A stretch of 64,000 nt of DNA from Alphaproteobacteria bacterium (GTDB taxonomy: Bacteria > Pseudomonadota > Alphaproteobacteria > MPNO01 > UBA2964), in NCBI GenBank assembly GCA_012103315.1, contig WLWZ01000001.1, positions 186,001 through 250,000 of the forward strand, read 5' to 3'. The notes under the pieces were generated by a model. That model made no database searches. It was not told where the DNA came from and was given only the letters and a program-made list of their open reading frames with translations. Position 1 is the first letter of the stretch. Each line of letters begins with the position of its first letter. A program made the translations under genes and the position numbers. This document shows positions 2,713 to 51,269 of the stretch, one piece after another.

Positions 2713-3492
2713 CTAAGTGTTCAGGATATCGATTATCTGCGGCAAAACTGTGGCATCCCCCGTCGCAATAATGCGTCCGTCTGACTCCATATCCAATACA
2801 TCTCCCTGCCAATCCGTCATGCTGCCGCCTGCCCCTGAAATTACCGGGATAAGTGCGAAGAAATCGTAAGGTTTTAGATCTGCTTCGACGATCAAATCAA
2901 TGTGACCATTTGCCAATAATCCGTAGGCATAACAGTCACCGCCATACATGGTCATCGCCACTTCTTCTGACAATCCTGAAAATTGGGCGTTGTCTGAACC
3001 GTCAAACATATCGGGCGATGTAGCATTCAACGTCGCTTTTCCAGGGGTAGAACATTGGCGTGTCGTGACGCTGGCACCGTTAAACGTCGTGTGTTGGCCG
3101 ATGGCGCCGAGCCATCGTTCCCCCAAAACAGGTTGGTCAATGAGGCCCAAAATTGGAGTCCCGTTCTTAAGCAGCGCGATGAGGGTTCCAAAGAGTGGCT
3201 TTCCCGCCAAGTACGCTTTGGTGCCGTCAATTGGGTCGAGGACCCAAACATATTCAGCATCAGTCCGATCCATCCCGTGTTCCTCACCGAATATACCGTG
3301 CTCGGGATACTGTTGGGTTATCAGTTGGCGCATTGCCTGCTCTGCATCGCGATCCGCGATGCTTACCGGTGTTTGGTCGGGTTTGGTGTCGACGGCTACA
3401 GCTGTTCGAAAGTGACGGCGCAGGATTGGGCCTGCAGAATCGGCAAGAGAACCTGCGAATTCACTGAATTCCTGAGGGCATGTATTAACCAT
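2713..3492 (-). CDS. hisN: histidinol-phosphatase, inositol monophosphatase family
   Basis: Mg2+-dependent phosphatase of the inositol monophosphatase fold, 259 residues, the usual length. It carries the metal-binding motif FGEEHG, the signature WVLDPIDGTKAYLAGKP and a late KPYDFFAL segment in place of the WD motif of true inositol phosphatases. This pattern (DGTK plus KPYD) marks the histidinol-phosphatase branch, which removes phosphate from L-histidinol phosphate in histidine synthesis in the cytoplasm. It starts at an ATG and is followed without a gap by the two binding-protein genes, so the three are probably cotranscribed even though their functions look unrelated. A general IMPase role cannot be excluded, but the motifs favour HisN. 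Confidence 0.88.
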   Translation of the reverse strand: MVNTCPQEFSEFAGSLADSAGPILRRHFRTAVAVDTKPDQTPVSIADRDAEQAMRQLITQQYPEHGIFGEEHGMDRTDAEYVWVLDPIDGTKAYLAGKPLFGTLIALLKNGTPILGLIDQPVLGERWLGAIGQHTTFNGASVTTRQCSTPGKATLNATSPDMFDGSDNAQFSGLSEEVAMTMYGGDCYAYGLLANGHIDLIVEADLKPYDFFALIPVISGAGGSMTDWQGDVLDMESDGRIIATGDATVLPQIIDILNT

Positions 3493-32427: not shown

Positions 32428-32615
32428 TTCATTGCAGTACCCTAAATTTACCCTCTTCACGTTTAGTTTAGCGCCAGTTGATTGGTTCACCCCCCTACGG
32501 TGACTAGATCAGTGTAGAATGACTATGGTACATGCAATTGGATAACGAATTAGTGGGATTGGCTGGGCAAGCGTCTAATCAACGCGCCGCAGCTCTTTTT
32601 CCGAAGGAGAAAACC

Positions 32616-33371
32616 TTGGGTGATGAAGCGCAGAATGACTCCACGGCACCGGAAAGCAGTGAAAAGGTGGGGTTTTCGCCAGCAAAGCTGATCCCCGTCG
32701 CCATCCTGATAGCTGGTTTTTCTGCCTTCTTTGTCTTCGATTTAAATCAATATCTATCTTTTGATGCCCTCAAAGAGAACCGTGAAGCGTTGACCCAATG
32801 GGTTGCTAACACCGGCATTGTTGCTTGGTTGGTTTATGCCGGCATTTATGCAGTGGTTACTGCATTCTCCGTTCCAGGTGGCGCAGTCATGACAATTGCT
32901 GGTGGTTTTTTGTTTGGCCCTTGGCTTGGGGGGGCCTTGACAGTCTTCGGTGCGACGCTTGGCGCGACGGCTGTCTTTCTGGTTGCCCGCTATGCCTTGG
33001 CCGACCTGTTGCGCGAAAAAGCGGGTAATGCCATTCGCAAGATGGAAAAGGGGTTCAATGAGGATGCTCTGAGTTATCTTTTGTCTCTGCGCCTTATTCC
33101 TGCATTTCCGTTCTGGCTGGTGAATTTGGTCCCCGCTTTTTTGAATGTTTCGGTCGGTGTTTATATTTTCGGCACGGCTGTTGGAATCATTCCGGGAACC
33201 CTAGTGTTTTCGTTTTTCGGTGATGGAATAGGTGCGGTACTTGAAGCTGGTCAAGATATCGACCTTGGTATTATTTTTGAGCCACGGTTCCTCTTGCCGA
33301 TTATCGGGCTAGGCGTGCTTGCCTTGATGCCTGTGCTCTATAAAAAGATCAAAGGCCGTTCGGCCTCATAA
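32616..33371 (+). CDS. TVP38/TMEM64 (VTT domain) family membrane protein
   Basis: DedA-superfamily inner-membrane protein, 251 residues from the TTG at 32616. That TTG follows a strong GAAGGAGA site and gives a normal N-terminus; an earlier ATG at 32532 adds 28 unrelated residues and lacks such a site. Helices lie at about 25-45, 65-90, 95-125, 165-190 and 220-240, counting from this start. The VTT core includes FSVPGGAVMTIAGGFLFGP, GATLGATAVFLVARYAL and LRLIPAFPFWLVNLVPAF. Related proteins are thought to move lipids. It pairs with the flavin oxidoreductase that begins 27 bases on, a partnership also seen in other bacteria. Confidence 0.88.
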   Translation: MGDEAQNDSTAPESSEKVGFSPAKLIPVAILIAGFSAFFVFDLNQYLSFDALKENREALTQWVANTGIVAWLVYAGIYAVVTAFSVPGGAVMTIAGGFLFGPWLGGALTVFGATLGATAVFLVARYALADLLREKAGNAIRKMEKGFNEDALSYLLSLRLIPAFPFWLVNLVPAFLNVSVGVYIFGTAVGIIPGTLVFSFFGDGIGAVLEAGQDIDLGIIFEPRFLLPIIGLGVLALMPVLYKKIKGRSAS

Positions 33372-33398: not shown

Positions 33399-34823
33399 AT
33401 GGGTGAACGGATTGAAACTGATGTTTGTGTCGTTGGTGCAGGCTCAGGCGGCCTGTCATTCGCTGCTGGTGCTGTTCAAATGGGCGCTGATGTCGTCCTC
33501 CTCGAAAAAGGTGAGATGGGGGGAGACTGCCTAAACTATGGTTGCGTTCCGTCGAAGGCTCTGATTGCGGCTGGTCACGCCGCGTACGCGGTGCGATCCG
33601 CCAAACGGTTTGGTGTTGAGGCTGCTGAACCGACCATCGATCATGAAAAAGTTCGGGCCCATGTTAAAGGCGTGATTGCGGATATTGCGCCGCACGATTC
33701 CCAGGAACGATTTGAAGAGCTTGGTGTAAAAGTCATTCGCGAGCATGGCCGTTTCAGTGGACACCGGACTGTCGTTGCTGGGGACCACGAGATTTATGCT
33801 AAGCGGATCATTATTTCCACTGGCTCAGTGCCTGCGGTACCTCCAATAACTGGTCTTGATGCGGTGCCGTTCTTTACCAATGAGACGATTTTCGATCATG
33901 GCGAACCGATAGAGCATTTGTTGGTGATCGGTGGTGGTCCGATCGGTTTGGAACTAGCGCAGGCGCACAGACGGCTTGGAGCGAAGGTAACGGTCATAGA
34001 AGGGCTTAAGGCACTAGGGAATGATGATCCGGACCTCGCCATTGTGGTGAAGGATCGCCTCGTGTCGGAGGGCATCGACATTCATGAAGGGGCGTTGGTC
34101 CAGTCTATTTCTGGGGATGTTGGGTCGATTGCCATTGAAGCGGAACGTGATGGCGAGGCCCTTAAGTTGGAAGGGTCTCATCTTTTGATAGCTGTTGGCC
34201 GCACACCGAATATTAGTGACTTAAATCTTGAAGCTGCAGACATTGAGTCAGGGAGCGACGGTATTCCCGTTAATGCCCGGATGCAGACCTCAAACAAACG
34301 CGTTTTTGCTATCGGAGATGCTGCGGAAGGATACAATTTTACCCATATAGCGGGGTATCATGCCGGCATTGCGATCCGGAATATCCTCTTTCGGTTACCG
34401 GCAAAGTCGGATTACACCGCCGTGCCCTGGGTCACCTACACGTCGCCGGAGCTCGCCCAGGTTGGTTTGGGGGAAGAGGCGGCACGCCAACAGTATGGCG
34501 ATGTGAATGTTCTGGGGGCTAAATTCGCTGACAATGACCGAGCCCGCGCCGAAGCGGAGACAGACGGCATGCTTAAGGTGATTACGACTTCCAAAGGTGT
34601 CGTTGTCGGGGCCAGCATGGTTGGTGAGAAGGCTGGTGAGATCATTCAGAGTTGGTGCTTGCCAATCGCGAAAAAGATGAAAATTAAAGACGTCGCTGGA
34701 TTAATCCTGCCTTATCCAACATTGGGTGAAATTAACAAGCGGGCCGCAGGGTCTTACTATACGCCGTCGCTGTTCAGCGAGCGTACCCGAAAAATCGTTC
34801 GGTTCCTTCTGTCATTAGGATAA
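33399..34823 (+). CDS. FAD-dependent pyridine nucleotide-disulfide oxidoreductase
   Basis: Flavoprotein of the mercuric reductase/dihydrolipoamide dehydrogenase group, 474 residues. It has the FAD motif VVGAGSGGLSFAAG, the redox-active pair GGDCLNYGCVPSK (C-x4-C), the NAD(P) motif VIGGGPIGLELAQ and the second FAD contact VFAIGDAAEG. In true dihydrolipoamide dehydrogenase the C-terminal active site reads HPT with a His-Glu pair. Here it reads LPYPTLGEINKRA, so that His is replaced by Tyr and lipoamide is unlikely to be the substrate. A cytosolic quinone or thiol reductase role with the adjacent TVP38 protein fits better. GGAG precedes the ATG. Confidence 0.88.
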   Translation: MGERIETDVCVVGAGSGGLSFAAGAVQMGADVVLLEKGEMGGDCLNYGCVPSKALIAAGHAAYAVRSAKRFGVEAAEPTIDHEKVRAHVKGVIADIAPHDSQERFEELGVKVIREHGRFSGHRTVVAGDHEIYAKRIIISTGSVPAVPPITGLDAVPFFTNETIFDHGEPIEHLLVIGGGPIGLELAQAHRRLGAKVTVIEGLKALGNDDPDLAIVVKDRLVSEGIDIHEGALVQSISGDVGSIAIEAERDGEALKLEGSHLLIAVGRTPNISDLNLEAADIESGSDGIPVNARMQTSNKRVFAIGDAAEGYNFTHIAGYHAGIAIRNILFRLPAKSDYTAVPWVTYTSPELAQVGLGEEAARQQYGDVNVLGAKFADNDRARAEAETDGMLKVITTSKGVVVGASMVGEKAGEIIQSWCLPIAKKMKIKDVAGLILPYPTLGEINKRAAGSYYTPSLFSERTRKIVRFLLSLG

Positions 34824-34931: not shown

Positions 34932-35043
34932 AAGGGCGCGGAGAATTACGGGTCGCCACGACAATTGTGTTAAGGCCGCCGCACTCCGCCCCCGGATAAT
35001 GCTTTGTTCGGTGTCGAAAATTCTTTTAGGACGGGAGATCCAG

Positions 35044-35328
35044 ATGAATATCAAGAAAACCGCTACAATTATCAGCGTCGCCGCGATTGCTGCTGCGGCT
35101 ACAGCTCTGCCGGCTGCTGCTGCAGACATCAGCAAGTCTAGCAATGTCCAGCTTGCTGCTTGTAACCCTTGTGCTGCCAAGAAACGTGGCTGTAATCCTT
35201 GTGCCGCAAAGAAGGGCTGCAACCCATGCGCTGCTAAACGTGGCTGCAATCCTTGTGCCGCCAAGAAGGGCTGCAATCCCTGCGCTGCTAAGCGTGGTTG
35301 CAATCCTTGTGCCGCGAAGAAGCGCTAA
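35044..35328 (+). CDS. secreted Cys-rich protein with six CNPCAAK repeats
   Basis: A 94-residue protein. Residues 1-27 form a Sec signal peptide rich in Ala (cleavage probably after ALPAAAA). The mature part is nearly all repeat: six copies of CNPCAAK, starting at Cys40, 50, 59, 68, 77 and 86, each followed by KG, RG or a close variant. This gives twelve Cys in six C-x2-C pairs, alternating with Lys/Arg. A GGGAG ribosome site precedes the ATG, and a strong terminator with a UUCG loop follows, so it is a one-gene unit. The composition suggests metal or haem binding, or a substrate for Cys modification. I know no proven function for such repeats. Confidence 0.88.
   Translation: MNIKKTATIISVAAIAAAATALPAAAADISKSSNVQLAACNPCAAKKRGCNPCAAKKGCNPCAAKRGCNPCAAKKGCNPCAAKRGCNPCAAKKR
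35159..35325 (+). repeat. tandem DNA repeat coding for CNPCAAK units
   Basis: Six near-identical units of 27-30 bases (GGCTGCAATCCTTGTGCCGC-like) make up most of the Cys-rich gene. Third-position changes between units keep the peptide almost constant, which implies selection on the protein and not a recent DNA expansion. Confidence 0.85.
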
Positions 35329-35347: not shown

Positions 35348-35381
35348 AACGTCGTCTGGCTTCGTGCCGGGCGACGTTTTT
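35348..35381 (+). terminator. Rho-independent terminator after the Cys-rich gene
   Basis: AACGTCG pairs with CGACGTT and the inner CTGGC with GCCGG around a TTCGT loop; a run of T follows (35377-35381). Stable stem plus T-run on the plus strand. Confidence 0.85.
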
Positions 35382-35465
35382 CTATTTGAGGGATAGGTTT
35401 CCTCGGATGTTTTGGCAGAACATCTTCTTTGTCGCGATCCGCCAATTATCTGTATAGTGCCGCAG

Positions 35466-36899
35466 ATGGCATCAAATATTTCACATAATGCAAAGCGTGG
35501 CGTGGGCCTTTCGGCTCGTTTACTCCTGCTTACCATCTTTTTTGTCATGTTGAGCGAAGTGTTTATTTATGCGCCGTCGATCGGGCGCTACCGGCTCGTT
35601 TATCTTGAAGAAAGAATAGCAGCCGCACATTTGGCAAGTCTCGCACTTGAAGTTCCTGCCGATAATCTTGTTGGGAAGCAACTCCGTAAGGAATTACTGG
35701 ATCACGCGAAGTCTTTCGGCATTGTTTTAAAACGTCCAGATAGAAAATCGTTGATGCTGTCCGACGATATGCCTCCGGAAATTGACGTAACATTCCACCT
35801 CAGCAATCACAGTTTTATGGGGTTGATTGGCGACGCCTTTGATATTCTTCTCAGCGATGGCAGCAGGGTTTTTCGGATTATTGGCCCTTCGCCCAAGGAT
35901 CCTAATATCATTGTAGAAACCGTGATCGCAGAAGCCCCCCTCCGTGCCGCGCTAATCGATTATTCCCTAAACATTTTGGCATTGTCGATCATGATTTCAC
36001 TTATGACGGCAGTCTTAGTCTATGGGAGTTTGCAATGGCTATTTGTCCGGCCAATGCGGTCATTAACCGCGGTGATGGTGATGTTTCGGAAGGCGCCAGA
36101 AGACGGAACTCGCTTGGTTCAACCTGGAAAAAGAACAGACGAACTTGGTGTTGCGGAACGCGAGCTAGCAGGCATGCAACGAGGGTTGAGGACGGCGCTT
36201 ATCCAGAAGACCCGTCTTGCGGCTCTCGGCACGGCGGTCGCTAAAATCAACCACGACCTTCGTAATATTCTCGCGACGGCTCAGCTCGTATCGGATCATT
36301 TGGAAGTCTCCGAAGACCCCAACGTAAAACGAGTTGCACCGACCATGATGGGGGCCATCGATCGTGCTGTAACGTTATGTTCAAAAACCATACGCTTCGT
36401 ACAAGAAGGGGCGACGGAGTTAGAAGTCACACAGTTTGGGTTGGCACCTTTGCTGGATGAACTCTCTGATGCCGCGGGGACGATGGGTGATGGCAATGCA
36501 GTCCTAGATAGTCGCGTTGATGCAAGACTGGAATTACATGCCGATCGCGACCAGATGTATCGCGTTTTACTGAATCTTGCGCGCAACGCTTTCGAGGCAG
36601 GTGCCACCCGCGTGACCGTGCGAGCCCATTCTGAGGTCGGTCATGCCATTATCGAAATCACAGATAATGGTCCGGGCCTACCAGAACGCGTCCGCGGCGA
36701 ACTTTTTCAGCCTTTTGCGCGTTCTTCGCGGGCCGGTGGATCTGGATTAGGCCTTTCGATAGCTCGAGACCTGATGCTGGGCCATGGTGGCGATATCAGC
36801 CTGGCTCGGAGCACGGATGAGGGCACGGTGTTTCGGCTGACCTTGCCCATTGAACCTAATCAGGGAGAGCGTTCGACCCCAACATTAGTGCATGGTTAG
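35466..36899 (+). CDS. orphan sensor histidine kinase
   Basis: Membrane-bound sensor kinase, 477 residues from the ATG at 35466 (an upstream TTG at 35412 is possible). A first helix (about 20-38), a periplasmic domain of about 130 residues and a second helix (about 170-192) lead to a HAMP-like linker (RPMRSLTAVMVMF). The dimerisation domain with the phospho-acceptor His263 (KINHDLRNIL) follows, then the ATPase domain: NLARNAFEAGA (N box), DNGPGLP (G1), GGSGLGLSIARDL (G2). The H box, HDLRN, is an alphaproteobacterial variant. No response regulator gene is adjacent, so its partner lies elsewhere. Confidence 0.9.
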   Translation: MASNISHNAKRGVGLSARLLLLTIFFVMLSEVFIYAPSIGRYRLVYLEERIAAAHLASLALEVPADNLVGKQLRKELLDHAKSFGIVLKRPDRKSLMLSDDMPPEIDVTFHLSNHSFMGLIGDAFDILLSDGSRVFRIIGPSPKDPNIIVETVIAEAPLRAALIDYSLNILALSIMISLMTAVLVYGSLQWLFVRPMRSLTAVMVMFRKAPEDGTRLVQPGKRTDELGVAERELAGMQRGLRTALIQKTRLAALGTAVAKINHDLRNILATAQLVSDHLEVSEDPNVKRVAPTMMGAIDRAVTLCSKTIRFVQEGATELEVTQFGLAPLLDELSDAAGTMGDGNAVLDSRVDARLELHADRDQMYRVLLNLARNAFEAGATRVTVRAHSEVGHAIIEITDNGPGLPERVRGELFQPFARSSRAGGSGLGLSIARDLMLGHGGDISLARSTDEGTVFRLTLPIEPNQGERSTPTLVHG

Positions 36900-49937: not shown

Positions 49938-51269
49938 ATGGCGGGTTTTCCAAAAATACAACAGGTTTCGACTAAATATCTTGAGCAAACTATTCGAGAT
50001 TCAGATGCGCGAACCATCGCGTTGATTGCGGGGCTTGACGATGAACAATTGATGGGGCCGAGACTCGGCATTGTAAATCCCATGCTGTGGGAAATAGGCC
50101 ATATAGCTTGGTTTCATGAAAAATTTATCTTACGGGATCGTGATCAGCGGCCACCGGTCTTGGAGAACACCGATGTACTTTATGATTCCATGGCTGTTGC
50201 ACATGCGACGCGCTGGGATCTCGATTTGCCGGATCTCGAAGCGACGATTAATTATCGCGAAACTATTCGCGACTTGATTATTGAGCGTCTCGGTTCAGAC
50301 GAGCTTGCCACAGTTGAGAATTCCTATTTTACGCAACTCACGGCCTTTCATGAAGATATGCATGATGAGGCATTTACGTACACGCGACAGACACATGGTT
50401 ATCCACCACCGCTCTTTGTCGAGGAGGTGCCAGTGGCGGTTGATGATGCAGGACCGTATCCCGGGGATGTAGATATTCCGGGTGGTATTCATATGCTCGG
50501 TTCGTCACCAAAAGCTCCTTACTTCATGGACAACGAGAAATGGGGTCAGGGCTACGAGGTCAAACCGTTCTCGATTTCTAAGGCCCCGGTAACAAATGCG
50601 GAGTTCCTGGCATTTGTCGATGCTGGCGGATACCAGAGAGAAGAGCTTTGGACCAAGGCGGGTTGGCAATGGCGCAATCACACAGCTGCTGAGCGTCCTG
50701 TCTATTGGCAAAAATTGGATGGCAACTGGCAGGTCAAATATTTTGATCAGTTTGAGGCACTGCGACCTGATGCGCCTGTTGTTCATATTAACTGGTTTGA
50801 GGCGCAGGCCTGGTGCAAATGGGCGGCGCGTCGTCTGCCTTGGGAAGGAGAGTGGGAGGTCGCAGCGTCCCGAGCGCCACAGCCCGACAGTGAGATTCTT
50901 AAAGGTCCTGAGACTCGCTATCCATGGGGCAATGAAAGCGCCGCCCGCAGACATGCTAATCTTGATGGGTATTACGGCAGACCGGTTGATGTGGGAGCAT
51001 TTCCTGAGGGCGATAGTGCTTATGGTTGCCGTCAGATGATCGGGAATGTTTGGGAATGGACTGAATCTGTCTTTGCCCCCTTCGAGGGATTTGTAGCTGA
51101 TCCATATACTGATTATTCACAGCCATGGTTCGATGGTCGACATGCTGTGTTACGCGGTGGGTCCTGGGCCACCCGCAATAGGATTGTCTGGAACACGTTC
51201 CGGAATTTTTATACTTGTGACCGGCGTGATGTTGTTGCTGGGTTCAGAACCTGTGCGCTTGAGATTTAG
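49938..51269 (+). CDS. egtB: EgtB-like iron-dependent sulfoxide synthase
   Basis: Non-haem iron enzyme of the EgtB/OvoA/SenA group, 443 residues. The N-terminal DinB-like four-helix domain carries the iron ligands H55 (EIGHIAWFH) and H138, H142 with E144 in FHEDMHDEAF (HX3HXE). The C-terminal FGE-sulfatase-like domain (about 175-443) contains PGGIHMLGSS, PVTNAEFLAFVDAGGY, RRLPWEGEWEVAA, MIGNVWEWTESVF and VLRGGSWATR. EgtB couples hercynine and gamma-Glu-Cys or Cys to a sulfoxide in ergothioneine synthesis. The EgtD methyltransferase that makes hercynine is not within this window, so a related substrate (for example in ovothiol- or selenoneine-type chemistry) cannot be excluded. Confidence 0.85.
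   Translation: MAGFPKIQQVSTKYLEQTIRDSDARTIALIAGLDDEQLMGPRLGIVNPMLWEIGHIAWFHEKFILRDRDQRPPVLENTDVLYDSMAVAHATRWDLDLPDLEATINYRETIRDLIIERLGSDELATVENSYFTQLTAFHEDMHDEAFTYTRQTHGYPPPLFVEEVPVAVDDAGPYPGDVDIPGGIHMLGSSPKAPYFMDNEKWGQGYEVKPFSISKAPVTNAEFLAFVDAGGYQREELWTKAGWQWRNHTAAERPVYWQKLDGNWQVKYFDQFEALRPDAPVVHINWFEAQAWCKWAARRLPWEGEWEVAASRAPQPDSEILKGPETRYPWGNESAARRHANLDGYYGRPVDVGAFPEGDSAYGCRQMIGNVWEWTESVFAPFEGFVADPYTDYSQPWFDGRHAVLRGGSWATRNRIVWNTFRNFYTCDRRDVVAGFRTCALEI

Follow-up and report, generated by a model that had tools for sequence, protein, structure and literature searches.

A proteobacterial family of Cys-repeat proteins with signal-like N-termini, often encoded beside DUF6969 and FGE-like genes and often fused to cytochromes

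The small CNPCAAK-repeat protein P0001, encoded in the window (the whole stretch of 64,000 nucleotides analysed here), is one member of a proteobacterial family of Cys-repeat proteins that carry signal-like N-termini, occur free or fused to cytochrome domains and are often encoded beside genes for DUF6969 and for an FGE-sulfatase-like protein. P0001 is not an orphan, and its large bacterial family appears to be undescribed. The preliminary description of the gene had missed the P460-fused paralogue of P0001, the conserved partner genes and the breadth of the family. The explanation that we tentatively favour, and regard as possible by analogy, is that P0001 would be a bufferin-like exported thiol peptide that binds a soft metal such as copper, and that DUF6969 would take the position held by the MNIO enzyme in bufferin systems. 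More specifically, each Sec-exported protein would be a basic thiol polymer without a fixed structure, its Cys separated by Asn-Pro, Ala, Gly and Lys; in the periplasm it may either bind a soft metal, for which Cu(I) is the likeliest candidate, or handle redox stress beside haem proteins. DUF6969 would act on or guard the Cys in the cytoplasm before Sec export, as MNIO does for bufferins, and in many alphaproteobacteria a secreted FGE-like CGxC protein would work with the repeat system outside. Larger members of the family have the repeat fused to P460 or c-type cytochrome domains.

The CNPCAAK gene and its locus

The translation of P0001 starts MNIKKTATIISVAAIAAAATALPAAAADISKSSNVQLAACNPCAAKKRGCNPCAAKK and contains 12 Cys in six exact CNPCAAK units, which are joined to the signal-like N-terminus by the linker DISKSSNVQLAA (Table 1). 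Translation thus bears out the preliminary description of six units following a signal peptide, the signal and its AAA cleavage region being judged by eye. The ribosome site and strong terminator that had been proposed are likewise present, the terminator stretch having a folding energy of -37.9 kcal/mol (z -7.3). A second in-frame ATG lies upstream at 34999, versus the start codon of relatives, which corresponds to 35044. Among the six 21-nt units all 7 variable columns are third codon positions and none of the 14 first and second positions varies, an arrangement with a chance of 1 in 116,280 if columns were random. Since variation is confined to third positions, the identity of the units is kept at the protein level and does not simply reflect recent DNA duplication, in agreement with the selection suggested earlier. 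P0001 matched no family in Pfam or NCBIfam, had no useful relative among solved structures and gave no tblastn match against phages and plasmids with the low-complexity filter on. Across the 64-kb window, the P0001 gene was the only find of our Cys-repeat detector.

Table 1. Features of the repeat locus, in window coordinates
Feature	Position	Strand	Basis or remark
VTT (TVP38/TMEM64-type) membrane protein	32532..33371	+	Pfam; conserved upstream neighbour
FAD/NAD disulfide oxidoreductase, related to MerA/dihydrolipoyl dehydrogenase	33399..34823	+	Pfam/NCBIfam; conserved upstream neighbour
RBS-like GGGAG	35033..35037	+	6 nt 5' of P0001 ATG (sequence)
Secreted CNPCAAK-repeat protein P0001	35044..35328	+	94 aa; signal-like residues 1-26, short linker, six units
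Array of six 21-nt CNPCAAK units, short K/R/G linkers	35161..35319	+	
Single CNPCAAK units	35161-35181, 35191-35211, 35218-35238, 35245-35265, 35272-35292, 35299-35319	+	
Intrinsic terminator	35348..35378	+	13-pair stem, then T tail
Sensor histidine kinase (HAMP-HisKA-HATPase)	35412..36899	+	Pfam; conserved downstream neighbour

The order VTT protein, FAD oxidoreductase, repeat gene and histidine kinase is seen again in seven other loci, of which L148 and L151 belong to the genus of the source genome and the others are L013, L020, L028, L036 and L044, and the neighbours in loci sharing this order are 49-89% identical. The number of units varies between loci: the window gene has six, that of L148 four and that of L059 two. 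Such freedom is expected of a capacity-type binder and, with the CxxC pairs in a basic chain that hold the 12 Cys of P0001 and the metal and redox genes nearby, it would suit an unmodified metallothionein-like periplasmic buffer whose plain CxxC thiols would hold Cu(I) or Zn(II) and for which DUF6969 would be only a chaperone or metal-delivery factor. We consider this buffer unlikely: free thiols need protection in an oxidising periplasm, and the almost constant company of DUF6969 suggests that the protein does more than bind passively. Variable unit number and low-complexity Cys/Ala/Lys repeats would also be compatible with an envelope component that serves as a disulfide-crosslinked structural matrix or as an adhesive peptide, a very unlikely reading that leaves DUF6969, the FGE-like protein and the cytochrome fusions unexplained.

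Spread of the repeat and its cytochrome fusions

Of 385 alphaproteobacterial genomes, 38 contain the CNPCAAK DNA pattern and none the reversed control pattern, and a scan of genome contigs confirmed by tblastn yielded at least 79 repeat loci, nearly all in alphaproteobacterial MAGs. Homologues with a conserved repeat are therefore numerous, clearly contrary to the absence that the preliminary description had named as a refutation and as befits its independent exported Cys-rich gene, and its proposal to search genomes for the repeat and record the neighbours has led to a wide family with DUF6969, the FGE-like protein and cytochromes as partners. Two main forms are found, often side by side: a short one of about 80-160 aa, and a long one with N-terminal repeats and a C-terminal cytochrome P460 domain. 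The source genome has both, its 348-aa long paralogue (L009:7728-8774, contig C20) passing the gathering score of PF16694 (28.4 bits against 27). Counting against the favoured explanation, three different contigs of this genome carry the short gene, the P460 fusion and the pair of FGE-like and DUF6969 genes.

Among 21 long P460-fused sequences, C136, C139 and H140 (CxxCH) and K77 are invariant, and in alignment the invariant Lys coincides with the TVKE lysine of the solved P460 2je2, which we take to be the P460 cross-linking Lys. A P460 gene, usually fused to the repeat, is present in about 50 of the 79 loci among the matches listed. The fusion partner of the repeat is a c-type cytochrome rather than P460 in L089, L157, L159, L161 and L165, which come from other bacteria. 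These fusions, with the invariant Lys and CxxCH, would fit an electron-transfer or NO/hydroxylamine module in which the repeats are a tether or a docking/redox segment for P460 and c-type cytochromes, the free short proteins binding the same partners. Such a module seems quite unlikely to us, as many loci have only the short form. Moreover, the repeat and DUF6969 are shared by three unrelated architectures (free, P460, cytochrome c), which makes the repeat their common element rather than the haem domain. That the repeat itself binds haem, as had been entertained earlier, is unlikely: the units read CNPCA, with no CxxCH, the His being absent. Haem enters the family only via paralogues fused to P460 or c-type cytochromes.

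Two further observations concern individual loci. In L014 (and L151), the orthologue from genome G300 has an in-frame TGA for a Cys codon in the second unit (CNP*AAK), and repeats continue beyond it. Although the genus of G300 has SelA and SelB genes, selenocysteine is the less likely reading: this is one case among all loci, for which the simpler explanation, probably correct, is a nonsense mutation or an error of sequencing. Separately, at L050:638-1129 and ten other loci a secreted, cupredoxin-looking protein of 160-190 aa without a Pfam match is encoded near repeat genes.

Our literature search found no paper on CNPCAAK or NPCAAK repeats, subscription journals being mostly outside its reach and novelty accordingly not proven; for NPCNPC-type strings it returned unrelated papers only. 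Nor did it find any paper linking exported Cys-repeat peptides, DUF6969, the variant FGE-like protein and cytochrome P460.

DUF6969 and the FGE-like protein as partners

Clustering of the neighbours revealed DUF6969 and the FGE-like protein as the striking partners besides two-component regulators. DUF6969 (PF22308) is about 240 aa long, has no evident signal peptide and is apparently cytoplasmic. Among the 385 sampled genomes, DUF6969 is present in 35 of the 38 that are repeat-positive (Fisher p=6e-22) and the FGE-like gene in 22 of these 38 (p=8e-19), p-values that are indicative only, since the sampled genomes are phylogenetically related. Conversely, 22 of the 31 FGE-like-positive genomes have the repeat pattern and 29 have DUF6969. 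In all 38 repeat loci that hold a DUF6969 gene, the repeat lies within 3 kb of it. The DUF6969 and FGE-like genes adjoin on contig C23 of the source genome, away from the repeat genes.

The association was also assessed in reverse, by an HMM-based count over DUF6969 loci from genomes without the exact CNPCAAK pattern and from a phylum-wide sample. A secreted Cys-repeat ORF lies within 3 kb of DUF6969 in 12/31 loci of the former and 11/17 of the latter, and likewise in 6/7 loci of FGE-positive, pattern-negative genomes; these counts come from a crude detector that missed L154 and L155 (NPCGPK) and L177 (NPCAAK) and gave one or two hits that are doubtful frames. The motifs linked to DUF6969 vary, comprising NPCAAK, NPCGPK (L154-156), CGAC-K (L118, L119), CAAKKP (L166), C-Ala-Ala and, in protein P0002 of Burkholderia glumae, KCAPK. 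Constant among them are regular Cys amid Ala, Gly, Lys and Pro, and because regular Cys survive the changes of motif, this points to Cys chemistry, not a fixed motif, as what matters. The Cys-Ala repeats linked to DUF6969 at L107:5709-6051 and L167:5884-6367 (CCAAEGC, CAACAAC) have no Pro in the repeat, and their proteins have possible lipoprotein-type N-termini. DUF6969 is also found without a detectable repeat neighbour, in Azospirillum and Sinorhizobium meliloti, and its role may for this reason be broader.

Invariant or near-invariant residues of DUF6969 are His, Glu, Asp and Asn, including H52, H70, H72, E76, H79, H81 and H114. Its AF2 model is confident (pLDDT 90); searched against the PDB by Foldseek, it had no match at E<=0.001 (best 0.43), and the best VIA-align hit (Z = 4.6) was uninformative. 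From the invariant His, Glu and Asp and a confident model without a fold match, we infer that DUF6969 may be an enzyme. Apparent DUF6969 fusions were discarded, as their long open frames look like non-coding extensions in GC-rich DNA. No paper on DUF6969 and no solved fold was found in the literature and among solved structures. A more specific proposal is that DUF6969 represents a new class of cytoplasmic metal-dependent enzymes modifying the Cys of exported repeats, in a RiPP-like system that would be unrelated to MNIO, extend over Proteobacteria (Alpha, at least Beta and other classes) and be coupled to P460 and the CGxC FGE variant; we regard it as rather doubtful. If DUF6969 does modify or load the Cys, exported thiol metallophores would be made in two independent ways, by this system and by that of the MNIO bufferins. 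The repeat loci give a first functional context to DUF6969, which is now annotated as "hypothetical protein", for example on plasmids of Azospirillum and Burkholderia.

The FGE-like partner is a clear PF03781 member (148 bits against a cut-off of 23.3; 5e-43), is apparently secreted and has an invariant CGxC within a GGSWDDKGCGxCRxAARH-type motif. Another PF03781 protein, EgtB-like, is encoded in the window itself at 50460-51251 (447-aa frame). In 39/45 loci an FGE-like gene is found no more than 3 kb from a Cys-repeat gene, and C-x-P is contained in CNPC, which together would suit conversion of the first Cys of C-x-P into formylglycine by the FGE-like protein, giving a polyaldehyde peptide. 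In FGE, the Cys pair of the copper site is spaced C-x4-C. The CGxC of the partner is in the right region for this pair but spaced differently, and the AF2 model is weak at the active site. On the substrate side, CNPCAAK has Ala at +4 in place of the Arg of CxPxR, a motif that is absent; the FGE-linked repeats of L118 and L119 are CGAC without Pro, and in L122 most repeats read NPCAA and C-x-P is infrequent. The evidence does not support formylglycine being formed through the canonical FGE motif, and the polyaldehyde peptide is the least probable of the alternatives considered here. The literature search retrieved no paper joining P460 with formylglycine-generating enzyme or cysteine-rich proteins.

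Metal and redox context and comparison with known systems

Metal binding and a scaffold of modified Cys, both put forward in the preliminary description, remain the two leading readings, and both fit the DUF6969, FGE-like and cytochrome partners. Neighbours of the repeat loci include SCO1, cytochrome c, MsrP and a YeeE-type sulfur transporter, and sigma-70 with NrsF in Skermanella. On a Burkholderia glumae plasmid, the KCAPK-repeat peptide and DUF6969 (L174:4592-5684) are accompanied by thioredoxin, CcdA, ECF sigma/zf-HC2, arsenosugar glycosyltransferases and a TVP38/FAD oxidoreductase fusion. In Caulobacter, sigma-F/NrsF responds to chromium and cadmium (PMC3511200).

The source genome has two MNIO genes (PF05114), neither near the repeat loci, one of them on the contig of the window about 33 kb before its start. 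MNIO was rejected as the usual partner: phmmer with both MNIO proteins against all loci found a single neighbour, at the edge of L115. This locus (L115:1-837 and 2976-3291) is the only one with an MNIO-like gene a few kb from an NPC-type secreted peptide and DUF6969.

Several known systems share parts of this arrangement. Cytochrome P460 (PF16694) corresponds to the C-terminal domain of the large paralogues, with CxxCH and a Lys aligned to the P460 Lys region; the matched solved P460 proteins, however, are without a long Cys-repeat N-terminal half, and P0001 is without a P460 domain. The FGE/SUMF1 family (PF03781; PvdO, EgtB, CalU17) includes the apparently secreted partner, which differs in its invariant CGxC and in being linked to repeats without CxPxR. 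Metallothioneins resemble P0001 in being small and very Cys-rich, mostly in CxxC pairs, whereas P0001 is exported, has no sequence match and has conserved partner genes. The closest parallel to the bufferin-like peptide that we tentatively favour is with bufferins and oxazolins, which are exported Cys-rich RiPPs modified by MNIO, the bufferins chelating excess copper (PMC12452194). Common to both sides are a signal peptide and numerous Cys at regular intervals, as well as repeats, which in oxazolins are EGKCG; rare fusions join bufferins to cytochrome c and to FGE-sulfatase, and Buf1 clusters hold sigma/NrsF genes (PMC12452194). P0001 differs from them in having no DUF2282 match, and the family as a whole differs in its repeat sequences and in its usual partner, which is DUF6969 and not MNIO.
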